64,000 bases of DNA from Haloglomus litoreum (GCF_029338515.1 NZ_CP119988.1:1-64000); one strand, 5' to 3'. Shown: positions 46,743-54,005, numbered from the stretch's first letter. Notes: generated by a model from the letters alone, not told the origin. Numbers and translations: made by a program.

Positions 46743-46936
46743 GGGCGGGCGTTCGAACGTCGACGGCTTAACTCCGGGCGGTCGGATACGGGGGTGTCGC
46801 GGCCGCCCCGCCCCCCGGGGCGCCGTGCTCCCGCGTCGGTCGGAGATGGATATATCGGGTATACCCTCCGAACAATCGATAAAATGTTCAAAATAATTGC
46901 ATTATTTACAATATTGGCCGAGAATCGGTCTGTTCG
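46743..46936 (-). promoter_or_regulatory. Promoter region of the antiporter operon with an AT-rich element
   Basis: The AT-rich element at 46873-46910 contains, on the minus strand, TATTTTGAAC followed by TTTTATCGAT and a flanking GTTC. It recurs at 50728-50765 (see findings). It lies 27-64 bases downstream of the stop of the DyP-like gene. A TATA-like GGTATAC (46863-46857) is also present on the minus strand. Its distance from the ATG at 46742 leaves a leader of 90 bases or more. Confidence 0.4.
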
Positions 46937-48250
46937 CTACGCTAACTCGGCGGTTCCGTCCGGAGCCGGGAGTGCCCGGAGGTCCCGTGGCGGCACGAGG
47001 AAGTTGCCCCGGTGTCGGACGAAGATGTACTCCAGGATGCCGTTGTTGACGCGCTGGCGGACGGCGGGCGTGACCTCGGTGAGGTCCTGCCCGTTCATGG
47101 CCTCGCGGACGGCGTCGAACTCGGACATCTCGCGCTGGAGGGAGGGGAAGTGGAGGCTGGCGATGCCGTCGTCGGCGGACTCGAAGTGACGGCGGTTGAG
47201 CTTCACGCCGCCGTCCTCGTCCCGGTTCGCCCGGGCGGCCTTCTGTGCGTGGCCCACCCGTCCGTGTTCGCGGGCCTGCTCGCGGATGGTGTCGAGCGTC
47301 TCGTCCACGCGTGAGTCGTCGCCGAGGTTCTCGCCGACGCCCTCGACCCAGTCGTTCTCGGCGTGCATCGGCGAGAACATCTCCATCACCTGCTCGGTGA
47401 AGTCCTGCTCGCCGTACCAGTCGGCCAGCCGCTGGCGGAGGTTGGCGACGTGCTTCGTGGTGCCGCCGGCGAACGGCCCCTCCTCGATGGTCACGCGGTC
47501 CTCGGGGGCCTGGTTCTTCGCGAACCCGGCCTTGAAGCCCATGAACAGCGGGCTCGCCTCCGGCACGGGGCCGTCGGCGGGAACGCCCTCCAGGCCGTCC
47601 TGCTTCGAGGCGGGGAGGCCGGCGCCGACGAACCCGGTCCGGCGGTCGGCCACCTCGAAGACGTCGGTGAGCGCGGCGTCGAACGCGACGCCGTTGGCGC
47701 GCTCGCGCTCGCCGGTGAGCGCGAGTTCCGCCGCCAGCAGCGCGTCCGGGCGGTCGCTGGCGAGGTGGAGCAGCGCGTCCTGCCGGTCGAAGTCGGGCGT
47801 CTCGAACGCGGAGAGCCGCCTGGCCGGGTAGATGTCGACGCCCTCCGGCGCCGACCCGTACCGCTGGAAGTACTCCGGCGAGTACGCGACCGAGCGCAGC
47901 AGCCCCTCGTGGGACCACGCGTACGCCTCGTCCAGCCGCGTGAGCGCGCGCTCGACGGTCGCGCGCTGGTCGGCCGTCGGCGGCCCCTCGCCGGGCAGGT
48001 TCAGGTAGAGCAGCGTCTGGTGGCTCGGTAGCTGCTCGTTGCCGAACGCGTCGCGGCGGATGTACTCGCCCCAGGCGAACTGCCGCGCCGGGAGCGTCGA
48101 GAGGTCGGCCGGCCCGGACGGGACGGGCGGCCGGTCCTCGCCCTGGTAGCCGACGGCGTCGAGACACGCCGAGAGCCCGACGCTGCCGCCGACCGCGACG
48201 GCCGCCTTCAGTACGTCGCGCCGTGTTCGTCCGTCGTCCGTTCCGGTCAT
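46937..48250 (-). CDS. Tat-exported DyP-type peroxidase-like protein
   Basis: A 437-residue exported protein. The N terminus is a Tat signal (TRRDVLKAAVAVGG, about 9-22) with a Cys at 29 that could be lipidated (VGLSAC). The mature part resembles the dye-decolorising (DyP) peroxidase fold of EfeB-type proteins: GFKAGFAKNQAPED (about 230-243), a C-terminal core RRHFESADDG, LHFPSLQREMSEFDAV and NNGILEYIFVRHRGNFLVPP. The distal GxxDG heme motif of true DyPs reads GFKAG here, with Ala for Asp, so peroxidase activity is doubtful. In iron uptake EfeB extracts Fe from heme or works beside EfeO. Its neighbours encode P19-like proteins, which supports a metal role; that link is inference. I recall relatives in NCBI as DUF7405, unverified. 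Confidence 0.65.
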   Translation of the reverse strand: MTGTDDGRTRRDVLKAAVAVGGSVGLSACLDAVGYQGEDRPPVPSGPADLSTLPARQFAWGEYIRRDAFGNEQLPSHQTLLYLNLPGEGPPTADQRATVERALTRLDEAYAWSHEGLLRSVAYSPEYFQRYGSAPEGVDIYPARRLSAFETPDFDRQDALLHLASDRPDALLAAELALTGERERANGVAFDAALTDVFEVADRRTGFVGAGLPASKQDGLEGVPADGPVPEASPLFMGFKAGFAKNQAPEDRVTIEEGPFAGGTTKHVANLRQRLADWYGEQDFTEQVMEMFSPMHAENDWVEGVGENLGDDSRVDETLDTIREQAREHGRVGHAQKAARANRDEDGGVKLNRRHFESADDGIASLHFPSLQREMSEFDAVREAMNGQDLTEVTPAVRQRVNNGILEYIFVRHRGNFLVPPRDLRALPAPDGTAELA

Positions 48251-48298
48251 GGTCGGTCGTTGCGGGTGGAGGTGTTTAGTCGTTCCATGCTGTCCGGG

Positions 48299-49363
48299 TC
48301 AGAGTGTGAGGCTGGTCGGTTGCATGTCGACGAAGGCGGTCTCGTACCCCTCGTGGCGGGCGACCTGCGGCGGGGTCGTCACGCGCAGTTCGAGGGTGTC
48401 GCCCGACGCGACCGAGCCGACGGCCGCGCCGTAGTGGTAGTTCAGGTCCGGGTCGAGCGTGCGAGACAGGGTCCCGTCGAAGACGGTCTCCCCGCCGCTC
48501 GTCAGCGTCCCCTCCAGCGCCATCGCCGGCAGGACCATCCGGTTGTACGGCGTCCGGGCGGATACCGCGAGGTACTGCGAGCCGTCGGGTGCGTCGACGC
48601 CCGCGGGTGGCGACTCGAGCGTGGTCACGACGAGTTTCGCATCGCCCGTCTCGGCCGTCCCGCGAACCGTCCCCGGCAGCTCCTCGGCCGGCGGCAGCGT
48701 CGACTGGGGCAGCATCCCCATCTCCATCGGGCTCCGGGCCATCCGTTGCCCCGCCTTGTCGGGCGTCTCCTCGAACATGATCTCGTCGCGTGCGGCCTGG
48801 CTGTAGTCGAAGCCGATGGTCGTCTCGGCGGGGTCGCCGAACCGCCCCTCGAACGCGCCCGTCCGCCGGATGTTCATCCCGCCGACCGAGAGGGTCACGT
48901 CGTAGCTCCCGTCGCCGTCCAGCGAGAAGTTCGCGCCGTAGTGGAAGCCCATCGGCTGAGAGAGCATCGGGTAGATGACCTCCTGGCTCACGAGGTCGCC
49001 GCCCTTCGATATCTCGATGCTGAGTCCCGTCTCCGGGAGGACGATGCCCGTCTCGGGGTCCCAGACGCTCGCCATCAGGTGGACGTCGTCGTCGTCCTCG
49101 ATGCTCGTCTTCTGGACCTCGTCCCCGTTGACGTTCCAGAACCGGTGGGGGTAGCTGTACATCAGGGCGAACTGGTAGTCGCCCGATTTCCCCATCCCGC
49201 TCATCTCCATCCCCTCGACGTGGGTGGGGAAGTAGACGGCGTCCGGGCGGTTCGAGAGGACCGGCGGGCTGGAGAGCGAGCGGGTCTCGACCAGGCCGCT
49301 ACAGCCCGCGAGCCCGGTCGCGCCCGCTCCCGCGGCCCCCAGCAGGAAATCGCGTCGTTGCAT
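48299..49363 (-). CDS. P19/Tp34-like metal-binding Tat lipoprotein, copy 1
   Basis: A 354-residue surface lipoprotein. The signal is twin-arginine (RRDFLLGAAGAGATG) with a lipobox ATGLAGC (Cys near 21). The domain contains MGFHYGANFSL (about 137-147), like the metal-binding HYGAN strand of P19/Tp34/FetP iron and copper proteins, plus Met-rich VEGMEMSGMGKSGDY (about 49-63), YHYGAAVG (about 309-316) and RHEGYETAF (about 336). These Met and His residues are suited to Cu or Fe(II). P19 family proteins bind metal outside the cell and pass it to a permease. The gene is paralogous to 52850-53950 over its whole length. It lies 48 bases before the DyP-like gene on the same strand. Confidence 0.75.
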   Translation of the reverse strand: MQRRDFLLGAAGAGATGLAGCSGLVETRSLSSPPVLSNRPDAVYFPTHVEGMEMSGMGKSGDYQFALMYSYPHRFWNVNGDEVQKTSIEDDDDVHLMASVWDPETGIVLPETGLSIEISKGGDLVSQEVIYPMLSQPMGFHYGANFSLDGDGSYDVTLSVGGMNIRRTGAFEGRFGDPAETTIGFDYSQAARDEIMFEETPDKAGQRMARSPMEMGMLPQSTLPPAEELPGTVRGTAETGDAKLVVTTLESPPAGVDAPDGSQYLAVSARTPYNRMVLPAMALEGTLTSGGETVFDGTLSRTLDPDLNYHYGAAVGSVASGDTLELRVTTPPQVARHEGYETAFVDMQPTSLTL

Positions 49364-49393
49364 TGGATATCCGTCGGGTCCCCCCGCAAAAAC

Positions 49394-49416
49394 GGGTTCT
49401 GGTCCGACCGTCGAAA
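49394..49416 (-). promoter_or_regulatory. Shared upstream block, site 1
   Basis: A 23-base block beginning GGGTTCTGGTCCGACC (plus strand), identical to site 2 (53983-54005). It lies 31-53 bases before the ATG of P19-like copy 1, just upstream of a T-run (49387-49391, minus strand) at TATA position. It is a candidate operator. Confidence 0.6.
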
Positions 49417-49454
49417 CCGTCGTCTGCTGGCCGCTCCCGGCCGGTCGGGGCGTG

Positions 49455-50405
49455 TCAGGCCTCCCGTCGGGCCCGCCCGAGTGCCAGTGCGACGACGGCC
49501 GCAGCCGCGACGATCACCACGGGGCCGAATCCGGGCTGGCCGCCCGTCTCGGTCGTGCCGTCGCCGGGCGTCGCACTCGCGTTCCCGGTCGCGCCGCCGT
49601 CCCCGCCCGGCGGCGCGGTCGTCGGGACCGGGGTCGTCACGATGCCGCCGCTGCGCTCGGGTTCGACGCTGAACCGGGTGGCGACGGTCTCGTTGCCCGC
49701 CTCGATGGGTGGCTCGTCGCCGTCGAACCGTCGGTCCCCGTCGTCGCGGTGGAGGCTCACGCGTGCCGCGAACGAGCCCCCGGTCGACTCGTAGAACGAC
49801 TCGTTCACCGCGACGGAGACGTTCTCGTACGTCCCGGTGTCGAGGGTCCGGGTCCCGACGACCCGGCCGTCGGCGGTCCGGTTGCGGACGACGAGGTGCC
49901 CGCGCTCGGGGAGCGTCGCCTGCCGGACGGTCACAGTCGGCCCGTCGGCCCGCTGCGGGAAGTCGTCCTCGCCGGTGACGACCGCGCGGTCGCCACGTTC
50001 GACCACGAACCGGTCCGTGACGATGACGCCGAACCCGCCCAGCGGCGGGTCCTCGCTCGTGTACTCCCCGTCACCGTCCTCGCCGTGGAGGACGACGACG
50101 ACCTCGCGGGTGGTCCAGTTGGCCCACGCGCCGTCCTCGATGGTGACCGCGATGTCCGTGTAGAAGGCGTTCCGGCGGGGGAGCCGGGTGGCGCCGAGCG
50201 CCTCGCCGTAGCCGTCCGCGGTCCGCTCGTGGACGACGGCCCAGCCCGACTCCTCCACGAAGGCTCCCTCGACCACGACGGTCCCGTCGGGCGTGACCTG
50301 CGGGTCCGCGGAGACGTAGTTGACCGAGTGCCCGCCCACGACGCCCGCACCGACGAGCGCGGCCGCCAGCACGAGGAGGGTCAGCGTTGCGGCACCGGGT
50401 CGCAT
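49455..50405 (-). CDS. Surface protein with PGF-CTERM-like tail, copy 1 (DUF7282-like)
   Basis: A 316-residue exported protein: signal segment (about 7-26), two related beta-rich domains (about 30-130 with VSADPQVTPDGTVVVEGAFV; about 135-245 with DRFVVERGDRAVVTGEDDFP), a Thr/Pro/Gly-rich linker, and a C-terminal PGF-CTERM-like tail (GQPGFGPVVIVAAAAVVALA and a basic end). PGF-CTERM tails are cut by archaeosortase and attach proteins to the cell surface. The domain pattern matches the haloarchaeal family I recall as DUF7282, unverified. It has a paralogue at 51710. ATG 50405 is preferred over 50432. Confidence 0.7.
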   Translation of the reverse strand: MRPGAATLTLLVLAAALVGAGVVGGHSVNYVSADPQVTPDGTVVVEGAFVEESGWAVVHERTADGYGEALGATRLPRRNAFYTDIAVTIEDGAWANWTTREVVVVLHGEDGDGEYTSEDPPLGGFGVIVTDRFVVERGDRAVVTGEDDFPQRADGPTVTVRQATLPERGHLVVRNRTADGRVVGTRTLDTGTYENVSVAVNESFYESTGGSFAARVSLHRDDGDRRFDGDEPPIEAGNETVATRFSVEPERSGGIVTTPVPTTAPPGGDGGATGNASATPGDGTTETGGQPGFGPVVIVAAAAVVALALGRARREA

Positions 50406-50792
50406 GAGCGGGACTTCGGCATCGGGGCGCAAGAGGCTGCGGGTTCCTTCCCGATGCCGTACGCTGTTGCCGCCGTCGACGACTGATTCCTCCTGTCAGT
50501 CGAGTGGGCGCGCGCTGGCGGCCGTGCCCGCAGGGTCGGCCGCCTCTACACCGTGCGAGGTCCTCGCGAGCGGAGCGAGCGAGGGCTCGGTAGAGCTCGC
50601 TCTACCGGTGGCCGAGAAGCGCAGGCCGAACGAAGTAAGGCCGAGGACCGAAGCGAGGCGCGCGAATCGAGAGTGCGAGGGCTTCGGAGGTGGTTGCGTC
50701 GGTGCTGAGACGGTGGCTGAATCATCGATAAATGCGTTCAAAAGATAGAAATATGGAATTATTTAGATGAAATCACGGTATTATTGGTTTAT
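50406..50792 (-). promoter_or_regulatory. Long structured upstream region of copy 1 surface protein
   Basis: No coding sequence is convincing here. The right part (50728-50765) holds the AT-rich element shared with 46873-46910. The middle (50500-50710) is GC-rich with repeated GCGAGCG/GAAGCGAG-like units and a perfect 9-base inverted repeat around 2 bases, CGGTAGAGCTCGCTCTACCG. A weak match to the P19-gene upstream block, GGGTTCCTTCCCGA, lies at 50441-50454. The region may be a long leader or a small RNA. Confidence 0.4.
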
Positions 50793-51317
50793 TCACTCGG
50801 CAAGGAGCGAATCCACGAGCCGCGTGAACCGGTCGACGAGCCGCTCCGGGAGCGACGGTTCGGCCCGTTGCAGGAGCCGTGCCGTCCGCTCGGGCGCCGA
50901 CAGCGTCAGGACCACGCGGTTCCCGTCGCGTTCCGTGCGGACCACGCCGGCCTCGACCAGCCGGTCGACGTGCCAGGAGCAGGTCGAGCGGGCGATGCCG
51001 ACCCGCTCCGCGGTCTCGCCCGCGCCGAGCGGGCCCGCAGCGAGCAGTTCAGCCACGATGTCGGCGCTCGTCTCGCGATGGAGCAGCGCGAGCGCGGCCC
51101 GCTCCCAGTCGTCGAACTCGGGCGGGTAGTAGTGGGTCCGGCCGAACAGTTCGTCGGCCACGAGCCGGTCGGCGCGGATGAGCCGCTTGAGGTGGTACTG
51201 GACCTGCCCGGGAGCGAGGTCCAGCACCCGGACGAGTTCGTTGAAGTGGACGCCCGGGCAGTCCCGGACGTGGTCGTGGATGGCCCGGCGGGTCGCGTTC
51301 TCGGCCGTCTCACTCAT
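50793..51317 (-). CDS. Tandem winged-helix transcription regulator
   Basis: A 174-residue cytoplasmic regulator with two winged helix-turn-helix domains. The first (about 8-65) has CPGVHFNELVRVLDLAPGQV and QYHLKRLIRADRLVADELFG, and the second (about 85-145) has GAGETAERVGIARSTCSWHV and a basic wing RTERDGNRVVLTLSAP. Tandem ArsR/MarR-like proteins of this kind act as repressors. Cys11-like residues (DCPG) and HYY are potential metal or redox sensing positions, but no site is proven. Its start overlaps the upstream membrane gene by 8 bases. It lies in the middle of the P19-like/surface protein cluster and is the obvious candidate to bind the shared upstream block. Confidence 0.75.
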   Translation of the reverse strand: MSETAENATRRAIHDHVRDCPGVHFNELVRVLDLAPGQVQYHLKRLIRADRLVADELFGRTHYYPPEFDDWERAALALLHRETSADIVAELLAAGPLGAGETAERVGIARSTCSWHVDRLVEAGVVRTERDGNRVVLTLSAPERTARLLQRAEPSLPERLVDRFTRLVDSLLAE

Positions 51318-51684
51318 CGTCGTGTCCCCCCTCGAAACCGCCCGGGTGCGTGTCGCGTCCGCCGTCCGGCGCCGCCTCGGGCGTCTCGTCCGAGCGGGCC
51401 CGCCGCCGGACCGACCGCGCCGTGTAGACGGCCGCGATGACCAGCGCGGCCATCAGCACGTCCAGGATGTGCTCGGCGAGATGGTGGTCGGGGTCCGCCA
51501 GCAGGCCGGCCATCGCGGCTGTCGCCACGCCGACGCGTGCCAGTAGCGTCGCGAGCGCGAGCGCCACCAGCAGGTACGAGGCCGAGCGTCGGCGCGCGAA
51601 GCCCGCGAGCGCGAGGCCCAGCAGCGTGGCTGCCGCGACCCCTGCGAGCGCCAGCAGCACGATGAGCACCGGCCCGTTCGCCAT
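51310..51684 (-). CDS. Small membrane protein with His-rich helix start (DUF7471-like)
   Basis: A 124-residue membrane protein with three membrane segments (about 5-30, 36-58 and 70-95; LIVLLALAGVAAATLLGLAL, SYLLVALALATLLARVGVAT). The motif DPDHHLAEHILDVLMAALV (about 64-82) places three His at the mouth of the last segment, a plausible metal site. The C-terminal tail is polar and charged with more His. It overlaps the regulator gene by 8 bases, an operon. I recall relatives as DUF7471, unverified. It could be a permease subunit or a metal-sensing partner of the regulator. Confidence 0.6.
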   Translation of the reverse strand: MANGPVLIVLLALAGVAAATLLGLALAGFARRRSASYLLVALALATLLARVGVATAAMAGLLADPDHHLAEHILDVLMAALVIAAVYTARSVRRRARSDETPEAAPDGGRDTHPGGFEGGHDDE

Positions 51685-51709
51685 GAATGTGCGTAGTCAT
51701 CGTTCGTGT

Positions 51710-52756
51710 TTAGGTCCGTCGGCGTCGCGCGTGAGCGACGAGACCGACCACGAGGGCCAGTGCCGCCGCCAGGGTGCCGAATCCGGGCTGGCCGTCCGTG
51801 CCCGTCGTGCTGGCGTCGGTCGCCGTTCCGTCTCCGCTCGTTCCGTCTCCGCTCGCCGTGGACCCGGCCGTCGCGGTCGTGACGAGGCTGCCGTCGTCCG
51901 AGCCGTCGGTCGCGCTCGGGGTGGTCACCGCCGCGCCCTCGTCGCCATCCCCGGCCCCGTCCCCGCCGCCGGTGTCCGTCCGGTTGAGGGAGACGAAGGT
52001 GGTGAGCGTTTCGCCCCCCGCCCGGACGGGCTCGTCGTCGGCGTCGAAGGTGCCGTCGCCGTCGTCGCGGTAGACGGTGAACGCGATGCGGGCGCGGGCA
52101 TCCTGGCGCTCGTAGTAGTCCTCGTCCAGCTCGACGGTGACGTTCCCGTGGGTGCCGGCGCCGAGCGCCGTGGCGCCGACGGGTTCCAGCGCGGTCTCGT
52201 TCTCGCCGACATCGGTCACGTTCCGCGCGACGAGGTGGCCGTCGCTCGGGAGCCGGACGGTCCGGGCGGTCACGCTCGGACCGTCAGTCTCCTGCGGGCT
52301 GAACGCCCGTGCGCCGACGTAGGCACCCGTTCCCCGTTCGAGCGTGAACCGGTCGGTCGCCGCCCGTCCGAAGAACGTCAGGACCTCGTCCTCCTCGGGG
52401 TCGAAGCCGCTCGAGCCCTCGTCGTTGTGGAGCGCGACGTGGACGGTGCGGGCCTCGCCCTCGGGCCAGTCGCGCCAGGCCGCCTCGTCGATGCTGACGG
52501 CGAGGTCGGTCCGGAAGCCGGCGCCGCTCAGCCGCCTCGTCGCGATGACCTCGCCCCGCGAGCCGTCGTCGTCGCGGTAGACCGCCAGCCAGGCGTCGTC
52601 GGCGACGTACGCCGTCTCGACCAGCACGGTCCCGTCTGCCGAGACCTGTGGGTCGCCACGGACATCGTTGACGTGGGCGCTGACGGGGAGCGGGACCGCC
52701 GCCAGTGCGGCCACGCAGGCCAGGGCGAGCGTCGCCGCGAGCGCGTGTCGTCTCAC
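51710..52756 (-). CDS. Surface protein with PGF-CTERM-like tail, copy 2 (DUF7282-like)
   Basis: A 348-residue exported protein, paralogue of 49455-50405. A signal peptide (RRHALAATLALACVAALAAV, cleaved after VSA) is followed by two beta domains (RGDPQVSADGTVLVETAYVA about 35-55; LERGTGAYVGARAFSPQETD near 139), a Thr/Ser/Gly/Asp-rich linker and a tail GQPGFGTLAAALALVVGLVA with a basic end. The start is GTG 52756, because a TATA-like CTATAC (about 52786-52780) lies 25-30 bases before it; the longer frame starts with an unlikely TTG. It is transcribed toward the small membrane protein and regulator. Confidence 0.7.
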   Translation of the reverse strand: MRRHALAATLALACVAALAAVPLPVSAHVNDVRGDPQVSADGTVLVETAYVADDAWLAVYRDDDGSRGEVIATRRLSGAGFRTDLAVSIDEAAWRDWPEGEARTVHVALHNDEGSSGFDPEEDEVLTFFGRAATDRFTLERGTGAYVGARAFSPQETDGPSVTARTVRLPSDGHLVARNVTDVGENETALEPVGATALGAGTHGNVTVELDEDYYERQDARARIAFTVYRDDGDGTFDADDEPVRAGGETLTTFVSLNRTDTGGGDGAGDGDEGAAVTTPSATDGSDDGSLVTTATAGSTASGDGTSGDGTATDASTTGTDGQPGFGTLAAALALVVGLVAHARRRRT

Positions 52757-52799
52757 TGTCGAAGCATTGCGGGGCACAGCGTATAGCGCATTTCCCAAT

Positions 52800-52810
52800 T
52801 CGGACCAGAA
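52800..52810 (-). promoter_or_regulatory. Shared upstream block, inverted partial copy
   Basis: TCGGACCAGAA on the plus strand is the exact reverse complement of the TTCTGGTCCGA core in sites 1 and 2. It lies 44-54 bases before GTG 52756, just upstream of the TATA-like CTATAC. Orientation is opposite to the other two sites. Confidence 0.5.
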
Positions 52811-52849
52811 TCGTCCGGTCGTCGGCCACGGTGGCTCGCCACCGGCCGC

Positions 52850-53950
52850 TCAGACCGTGAACGTCATCGGCTCCATCTGGAGGAACGCCCGCTCGTACCC
52901 CTCGTGGCGTGCGATCTGCGGCGGCGTCGGGACCCGTAGCTCGACCTCGTCGCCGGCCTCCAGCCCACTCTCGATGGCGGCGCCGTAGTGGTAGTCCAGC
53001 TCGGGATCCAGCGTCCGGGTCAGCGCGCCGTCGAGGACGGTCTCGCCGCCCCGGGTGACGGTCGCCTCGACGGCCATCGACGGCAGGACGATGCCGTTGT
53101 ACGGGGTTCGGGCGGAGACGGCGAGGTACTGCTCGGCGTCGAACCGGCTCGCGGCGTCGCCCGAGAGCTGTGTCGAGAGGAACGTGGCGTCGTCGCTGGT
53201 CGTCTCCGCGAGGAACTCGCCGGGCAGGTCTTCCTTCGCCGGGGCGTACGCCTGCGGCATCATCCCCATGCTCATCGGCTGGACCGCGCCACGCTTGCCG
53301 TACTGCTCCAGTTCCTCGACGGTCACCTTCGAACGTTCCTCCTCGTTGAACGCGAACGGGACCTCCACCGTCGCGGGATCGCCGAATCGGCCCTCGAAGG
53401 CGCCCGTCCGGCGGGTGCTCATCCCGCCGATCCCCACCTTCGCGGTGTACTCCCCGTCGCCGGCCAGCCCGAAGTTGCCGCCCCAGTGGAACCCCATCCG
53501 CTGGGAGAGCATCGGGTAGATGACCTCCTGACTCACCAGTTCGTCGCCCTGCACGATCTCGACCGAGACGCCGACCTCCGGGAGGACCGTGTTCGTCTCG
53601 GTGTCCCAGACGACGGCCATCAGGTGGATGCTGTCGGAGTCCTCCTTCGGCGTCTTCTGCTTCTCCGACCCGACGACGTTCCAGAAGACGTGCGGGGCGG
53701 CGTACATCAGGCCGACCGTGTAGTCGCCCTCCGATTCGGTCCCCTGCATCGCCATGCTCTCGGCGTAGCGCTGGACGTAGACCCCCTCGGGCAGGGAGTC
53801 CTGGTCGGCCTGCGTCGGCGTCTCGCCGCTGCCGCCGGCCGGCGTCGGTGTCGGGTCCGAGCCACCGTCCCCCTCGTCGGTGCCGGTGCACCCGGCCACC
53901 GCGAGGATACCGGCCGCGCTCCCTGCCCGCAGGAACTGCCGTCTGTTCAT
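52850..53950 (-). CDS. P19/Tp34-like metal-binding Tat lipoprotein, copy 2
   Basis: A 366-residue surface lipoprotein, paralogue of 48299-49363. The Tat signal RRQFLRAGSAAGILAVAGC ends in a lipobox (Cys near 21), followed by a Gly/Thr/Pro/Asp-rich linker (about 24-50). The P19-like domain shows Met-rich YAESMAMQGTESEG (about 60-73), GLMYAAPHVFWNVVG, MGFHWGGNFGL (about 148-158), YHYGAAIES (about 320) and RHEGYERAFLQMEP at the C terminus. The pattern differs from copy 1 in that the HYGAN-like strand has HWGGN. The same strongly conserved block lies before both copies. The divergent gene at 54090 begins 139 bases away. Confidence 0.75.
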   Translation of the reverse strand: MNRRQFLRAGSAAGILAVAGCTGTDEGDGGSDPTPTPAGGSGETPTQADQDSLPEGVYVQRYAESMAMQGTESEGDYTVGLMYAAPHVFWNVVGSEKQKTPKEDSDSIHLMAVVWDTETNTVLPEVGVSVEIVQGDELVSQEVIYPMLSQRMGFHWGGNFGLAGDGEYTAKVGIGGMSTRRTGAFEGRFGDPATVEVPFAFNEEERSKVTVEELEQYGKRGAVQPMSMGMMPQAYAPAKEDLPGEFLAETTSDDATFLSTQLSGDAASRFDAEQYLAVSARTPYNGIVLPSMAVEATVTRGGETVLDGALTRTLDPELDYHYGAAIESGLEAGDEVELRVPTPPQIARHEGYERAFLQMEPMTFTV

Positions 53951-53982: not shown

Positions 53983-54005
53983 GGGTTCTGGTCCGACCGT
54001 CGAAA
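53983..54005 (-). promoter_or_regulatory. Shared upstream block, site 2
   Basis: The same 23 bases as site 1, identical at every position, 33-55 bases before ATG 53950. A run of A (53978-53981, plus strand) follows at TATA distance, as in site 1. Candidate operator for a common regulator. Confidence 0.6.

Follow-up and report, generated by a model that had tools for sequence, protein, structure and literature searches.

A 64,000-nucleotide stretch from Haloglomus litoreum (GCF_029338515.1 NZ_CP119988.1:1-64000; hereafter the window) carries seven intact open reading frames on its minus strand between positions 46937 and 53950, and we propose, with a probability of about 0.5, that this locus belongs to a haloarchaeal system for acquiring and delivering copper outside the cytoplasm. 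In the order of transcription, the genes encode P19-2, surface protein 2, DUF7471, a tandem winged helix-turn-helix (wHTH) regulator, surface protein 1, P19-1 and DUF7405. The Pfam assignments for the seven genes are DUF7405, Iron_transport (P19) with DUF7350 (twice), DUF7282, HTH_HVO_0163_N with an ArsR-type wHTH, and DUF7471. An earlier note on this DNA, made from the sequence alone, had described seven genes on one strand, among them two P19-like twin-arginine translocation (Tat) lipoproteins, two PGF-CTERM-like surface proteins, and a regulator and a membrane protein overlapping by 8 bases. This description is borne out by the reading frames, the Pfam matches, the Tat/lipobox starts visible in both P19 proteins and the C-terminal ends of both surface proteins (PGFG, transmembrane (TM) segment, basic residues). 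The DUF7471 gene ends at 51310 and the wHTH gene starts at 51317, which gives the overlap of 8 nt.

Tandem P19 lipoproteins and their promoter motif

P19-1 (48299..49363, minus strand) and P19-2 (52850..53950, minus strand) are Tat lipoproteins with an Iron_transport half and a DUF7350 half. The first half matched a profile of the FtrA structure (E 6e-6). The AlphaFold model of P19-1 had a mean predicted local distance difference test (pLDDT) score of 91.5, and the leading Foldseek matches were FtrA, FetP, Tp34 and HftA (probability 1.0); 24 of the top 25 belonged to the P19 family, the remaining one being the designed cage 4nwn. DUF7350 is a second P19 fold, because it aligned with the first half at 95.9% probability, so that each P19-like protein is a tandem pair.

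The sequences keep His95, Met97, Met133, His141 and His337 without exception (51/51). The positions of His95, Met133 and His141 align with those of the Azospirillum P19, and we take the ligand positions of the first fold to be those of FetP His44, Met90 and His97. At the position of FetP Glu46 stands Met97, again without exception. The RHxxxET histidine, which is the residue altered in the FtrA-H151A structure, occurs only in the second fold (R336-H337-E341, 51/51). Since the His, Met and His of fold one and the last His of fold two are each invariant, the alignment suggests a single composite metal site common to both halves, to which the first fold would contribute His95, Met133 and His141 (with Met97 nearby) and the second His337, as in a fused dimer. 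The P19 kinship put forward in the earlier note is supported by Foldseek, the FtrA profile and the invariant ligands.

A shared promoter motif, TTCGA-n7-ACCASAAY, lies at about -51 before P19 genes, DUF7405 genes and some genes of K6, a membrane protein family described below. By gapped-word counting, 29 of 57 non-redundant regions upstream of P19 contained TTCG-n8-ACCA (no more than 7 in shuffles), as did 14 of 26 upstream of DUF7405 (no more than 5), and most of these sites were at -50 to -52. When a matrix trained on one half of the loci was applied to the other, the motif was found between -40 and -60 before 49/94 P19 and 32/61 DUF7405 genes versus 10/1241 other genes. This hold-out is not fully independent, since one genus may contribute loci to both halves. 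An exact string of the motif had at first looked clade-specific, and the general form was revealed only by gapped-word discovery, which gave no enriched motif upstream of the small membrane protein (MEM) genes.

The few other motif-bearing genes include NosL, CtaA and c85. The motif is also carried by a SCO gene (which our own labels had wrongly given as halocyanin), and a DsbD-like gene carries it in its plain form. Outside P19, DUF7405 and some K6 genes, the motif stands almost only before SCO, NosL, CtaA and exported proteins that begin with His. SCO and NosL are copper chaperone families, and in both Haloferax loci (L103 and L104) SCO overlaps P19 in one operon. Copper is indicated because the motif is common to SCO and NosL and because SCO and P19 share this operon. 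The genome of Haloglomus litoreum has exactly three perfect sites, before P19-1, P19-2 and a c85-like Tat protein, and a site with one mismatch before a DsbA-like Tat lipoprotein. The copy TTCGACGGTCGGACCAGAAC (49396..49415, minus strand) lies 52 nt upstream of the P19-1 start, and an identical copy (53985..54004, minus strand) lies 54 nt upstream of the P19-2 start.

Accessory proteins and gene neighbourhoods

DUF7405 (46937..48250, minus strand; PF24152, E 9e-164) is a Tat-exported protein which the earlier note had called DyP-like and linked to EfeB. Aligned by hhalign with the DyP profile, it gave 97.5% probability and E 8e-12 over 350 columns, versus at most 2.5% in three unrelated control alignments. 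The Asp position of GxxDG is Ala, Ser or Val in 29/29 DUF7405 sequences (Ala241 in the window protein), the correspondence of GFKAG with GFKDG being read by eye and the segments being placed somewhat differently by hhalign. His334, Arg353 and Arg354 are invariant in DUF7405, and hhalign sets this His four residues off. By these alignments, DUF7405 is a remote DyP relative without the catalytic Asp, and classical peroxidase activity is improbable. The remote homology stands, while EfeB-like peroxidase chemistry is doubtful because the GxxDG aspartate is replaced. A profile search with Dyp_perox_N gave no match in this genome. Another link between DyP and copper comes from an actinobacterial plasmid (L155:1-1371), on which the genes for a DyP peroxidase and a PCu(A)C copper chaperone lie directly next to each other.

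Surface protein 1 (49455..50405, minus strand) and surface protein 2 (51710..52777, minus strand) each contain two stretches of DUF7282 and consist of tandem immunoglobulin (Ig)-like domains; PGFG is found in 14/21 surface sequences, and both window proteins have the PGF motif, the TM segment and the basic tail. His26 is invariant in 21/21 surface proteins and follows an AxA-like predicted cleavage site in nearly all of them, so His is at the predicted mature N terminus of surface protein 1, and surface protein 2 has the mature start AxA|H. Predicted AxA|H starts were found in 25/25 surface proteins, 7/7 of family K18, 3/3 of c85 and 10/17 of K6 (at least one of them internal) versus 30/452 other proteins, and the only other DUF7282 protein of this genome with a readable N terminus has no His start. 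The surface-protein alignment contains no second invariant His that would complete a histidine brace, and Foldseek returned generic Ig-like matches only, so no family is claimed. The c85 proteins (L168:960-1469; L058, L075 and L076) are small and Tat-exported, are predicted to begin with HFP once mature, share the promoter motif and belong to no Pfam family.

The tandem wHTH regulator (50793..51317, minus strand) is followed by surface protein 1 after a gap of about 390 bp. DUF7471 (51310..51684, minus strand) is single-copy in this genome, with about three predicted TM segments and an invariant HHxxxHxxD. Its gene overlaps the wHTH gene by 4-8 nt in 32/33 adjacent pairs. Because of the few TM segments, this recurrent overlap and the invariant motif, DUF7471 is probably a sensor partner of the regulator; the earlier note's suggestion that the small membrane protein could be the carrier found no support. 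Two AT-rich stretches in the GC-rich window, at 46860-46920 and 50725-50790, resemble each other (ATCGATAAA..TTCAAAA) and could be terminators or binding sites.

No EfeU (FTR1) was found in the whole genome, where positive controls were detected, and a profile search gave FTR1 in 0/146 genomes of the order above the cut-off. The view that the cluster lacks FTR1/EfeU and is unlike EfeUOB thus extends well beyond the locus. K6 is a family of about 460 amino acids and some 10 predicted TM segments; its genes are often neighbours of DUF7350, its proteins often have an AxA|H start, and it had no match in Pfam, NCBIfam or PDB searches. At least 38 copies are no more than 6 kb away from a DUF7350 gene (pairs chosen by eye, distances checked). 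This genome has four K6 matches, none of them within the window cluster; K6 locations are L058:12629-14008, L163, L164 and G000:C1:2042948, 2426041 and 145312.

Within the order, DUF7350 occurs in 120/146 genomes and DUF7405 in 126/146. Every DUF7350 genome (120/120) also has DUF7405, and all 20 genomes without DUF7405 lack DUF7350 (Fisher p 1e-19), five of the 20 absences being read from missing listing rows. Furthermore, 77 of the 150 DUF7405 genes listed have a listed DUF7350 gene no more than 10 kb away, versus about 1.2 expected, so the gene set is more than chance. The earlier note had proposed a comparison of neighbourhoods across haloarchaea. A neighbourhood sample of 80 named loci and the window, picked by P19 similarity and hence biased to close relatives, contains DUF7405 in 60, the wHTH regulator in 47, DUF7471 in 38, surface proteins in 22 and K6 in 17. 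The Haloferax volcanii genome has profile matches to DUF7350, DUF7405, DUF7282 and DUF7471.

The cluster had also been called duplicated. It does hold two P19 and two surface proteins, but P19-1 and P19-2 are 53-54% identical and fall in different clades of a quick tree, P19-2 in a 19-row clade (Shimodaira-Hasegawa-like approximate likelihood ratio test 99) whose members mostly adjoin a surface protein. For these reasons, the locus appears to join two old P19 paralogues without recent local duplication. Loci of Haloglomus, Halorientalis and Halomarina show the paired arrangement again; the two cluster halves are convergent in Haloglomus halophilum (L035), and Halorientalis salina (L110) keeps the one-strand order but lacks surface protein 1. 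A third P19 paralogue of the same genome (L003:1480-3004; G000:C1 near 1124074) is directly downstream of a halocyanin gene, and no promoter motif was seen upstream of it.

A metal island in several haloarchaeal families (L093, L094, L096, L100, L101, L107 and L113 (plasmid)) contains the regulator and small membrane protein pair (HTH-MEM), PEMT, DUF7405, two P19 genes, K6, a Zn/Cd-type P-type ATPase and a cation diffusion facilitator (CDF). In some genomes, a multicopper oxidase, a ZIP-like protein and a halocyanin are added.

Proposed copper supply and its alternatives

In the proposed system, the surface proteins, anchored by PGF-CTERM and with a predicted free N-terminal His, would bind copper at the cell surface together with the double-P19 Tat lipoproteins. 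DUF7405 may assist, perhaps via a heme or redox step, and the copper would then be handed to SCO/NosL-type chaperones and cuproenzymes, or inward via an unlinked K6. DUF7471 would sense the metal or redox state and control the overlapping tandem wHTH, which may act on the -51 promoter motif. We infer the metal and the direction of its movement from context: the N-terminal His residues and the Met-rich P19 site would fit copper, and some loci have halocyanin, multicopper oxidase or metal ATPase neighbours, which we count for copper. The surface metal capture system of the earlier note is thus kept as extracytoplasmic metal handling, in line with the P19 ligands and the co-occurrence, whereas the carrier role of the small membrane protein is dropped and the context favours copper over iron. 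More tentative is the wider proposal of a haloarchaea-wide system of copper acquisition and trafficking, which would combine double-P19 lipoproteins with a composite site, N-terminal-His surface proteins, a non-peroxidase DyP relative, the 10-TM family and co-regulation with SCO and NosL through the motif, without FTR1.

Several points weigh against copper supply. The motif is not seen before surface, wHTH or most small membrane protein genes, and because of the first two we can only infer its link to the tandem wHTH regulator. By its score, the P-type ATPase of the mobile island is of the Zn/Cd type. Although P19/FetP/FtrA proteins of bacteria bind copper, they serve iron uptake, so by analogy a copper site alone need not mean a copper cargo; a title cited in PMC10783030 presents them as iron-transport proteins with a required copper site, and FtrABCD iron transport is treated in PMC11966278. 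With FetMP and FtrABCD as models, the locus could take up ferrous iron without FTR1, the P19 copper site oxidising or handing over Fe(II) and another permease (K6 or an ATP-binding cassette (ABC) importer) importing it. Halobaculum loci, in which P19 genes have an iron-type ABC binding protein and a FecCD-like permease as neighbours, favour such uptake and speak against copper supply, and DyP/EfeB is a bacterial iron-uptake component. We consider iron uptake unlikely, given that FTR1 is effectively absent from the order, that the FetP Glu46 position is the invariant Met97, and that SCO, NosL and CtaA account for several of the small number of other genes with the motif, SCO being operonic with P19 in the Haloferax loci.

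Detoxification of copper or several metals, in which the surface proteins and P19 lipoproteins would sequester excess metal outside the cell, is less likely again. In its favour is the mobile, near-identical island of at least seven genomes, where HTH-MEM/DyP-P19-P19-K6 stands together with a heavy-metal P-type ATPase and a CDF exporter, accompanied in some genomes by a multicopper oxidase and halocyanin. Against it, exporter genes are missing near most of the chromosomal copies, and a motif common to the copper delivery genes SCO and NosL fits supply better than removal. Quite improbable is a role in envelope redox maturation, in which the genes would aid the assembly of cytochrome oxidase or N2O reductase and bind metal incidentally. 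The motif also precedes CtaA, DsbD-like and DsbA-like Tat genes, but the conserved P19 ligands and N-terminal His point to direct metal binding, and this explanation overlaps with copper supply. In published haloarchaeal proteomes of iron starvation and copper stress, P19 and peroxidase terms gave no usable match.

The supply of copper to halocyanins, cytochrome oxidases and denitrification enzymes at the haloarchaeal cell surface is poorly known. The named families (DUF7350, DUF7405, DUF7282 and DUF7471), the promoter motif and the structural prediction are directly testable in Haloferax volcanii. The fold and the parts are of known kinds; no description was found of the tandem P19 architecture, the absence of FTR1, the promoter motif or the gene set, and a literature search found no paper naming these four families.

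Comparison with known systems

The surface proteins can be compared with CopC and lytic polysaccharide monooxygenase (LPMO)-type histidine-brace proteins as a works-like analogy only: they are Ig-like beta-sandwiches with a predicted mature N-terminal His, and unlike those proteins they show no second invariant His, sequence match or specific fold match. DUF7405 resembles DyP-type peroxidases (EfeB, PF04261) in its 350-column profile similarity and in keeping a candidate proximal His and distal Arg, and differs from them in the Ala, Ser or Val at the GxxDG Asp. With FtrABCD, FetMP and EfeUOB the locus has in common P19-like and DyP-like extracytoplasmic proteins. It differs from them in that the order lacks FTR1 and that the promoter motif is common to copper chaperones; none of the seven cluster genes matched EfeO or FtrB in Pfam.

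The closest relatives are P19/FetP/FtrA (Campylobacter jejuni P19, Escherichia coli FetP, Brucella and Rubrivivax FtrA, and Treponema Tp34/HftA), which have the same fold, the His-Met-His positions and the RHxxxET His motif. Unlike them, the window proteins have no FTR1/FetM permease, so that the P19 fold is here set apart from its usual described companion; FetP Glu46 is replaced by Met, two P19 folds are fused in one Tat lipoprotein, and the RHxxxET His is kept only in the second. Such a fusion may be how a P19 homodimer gave way to one composite site.

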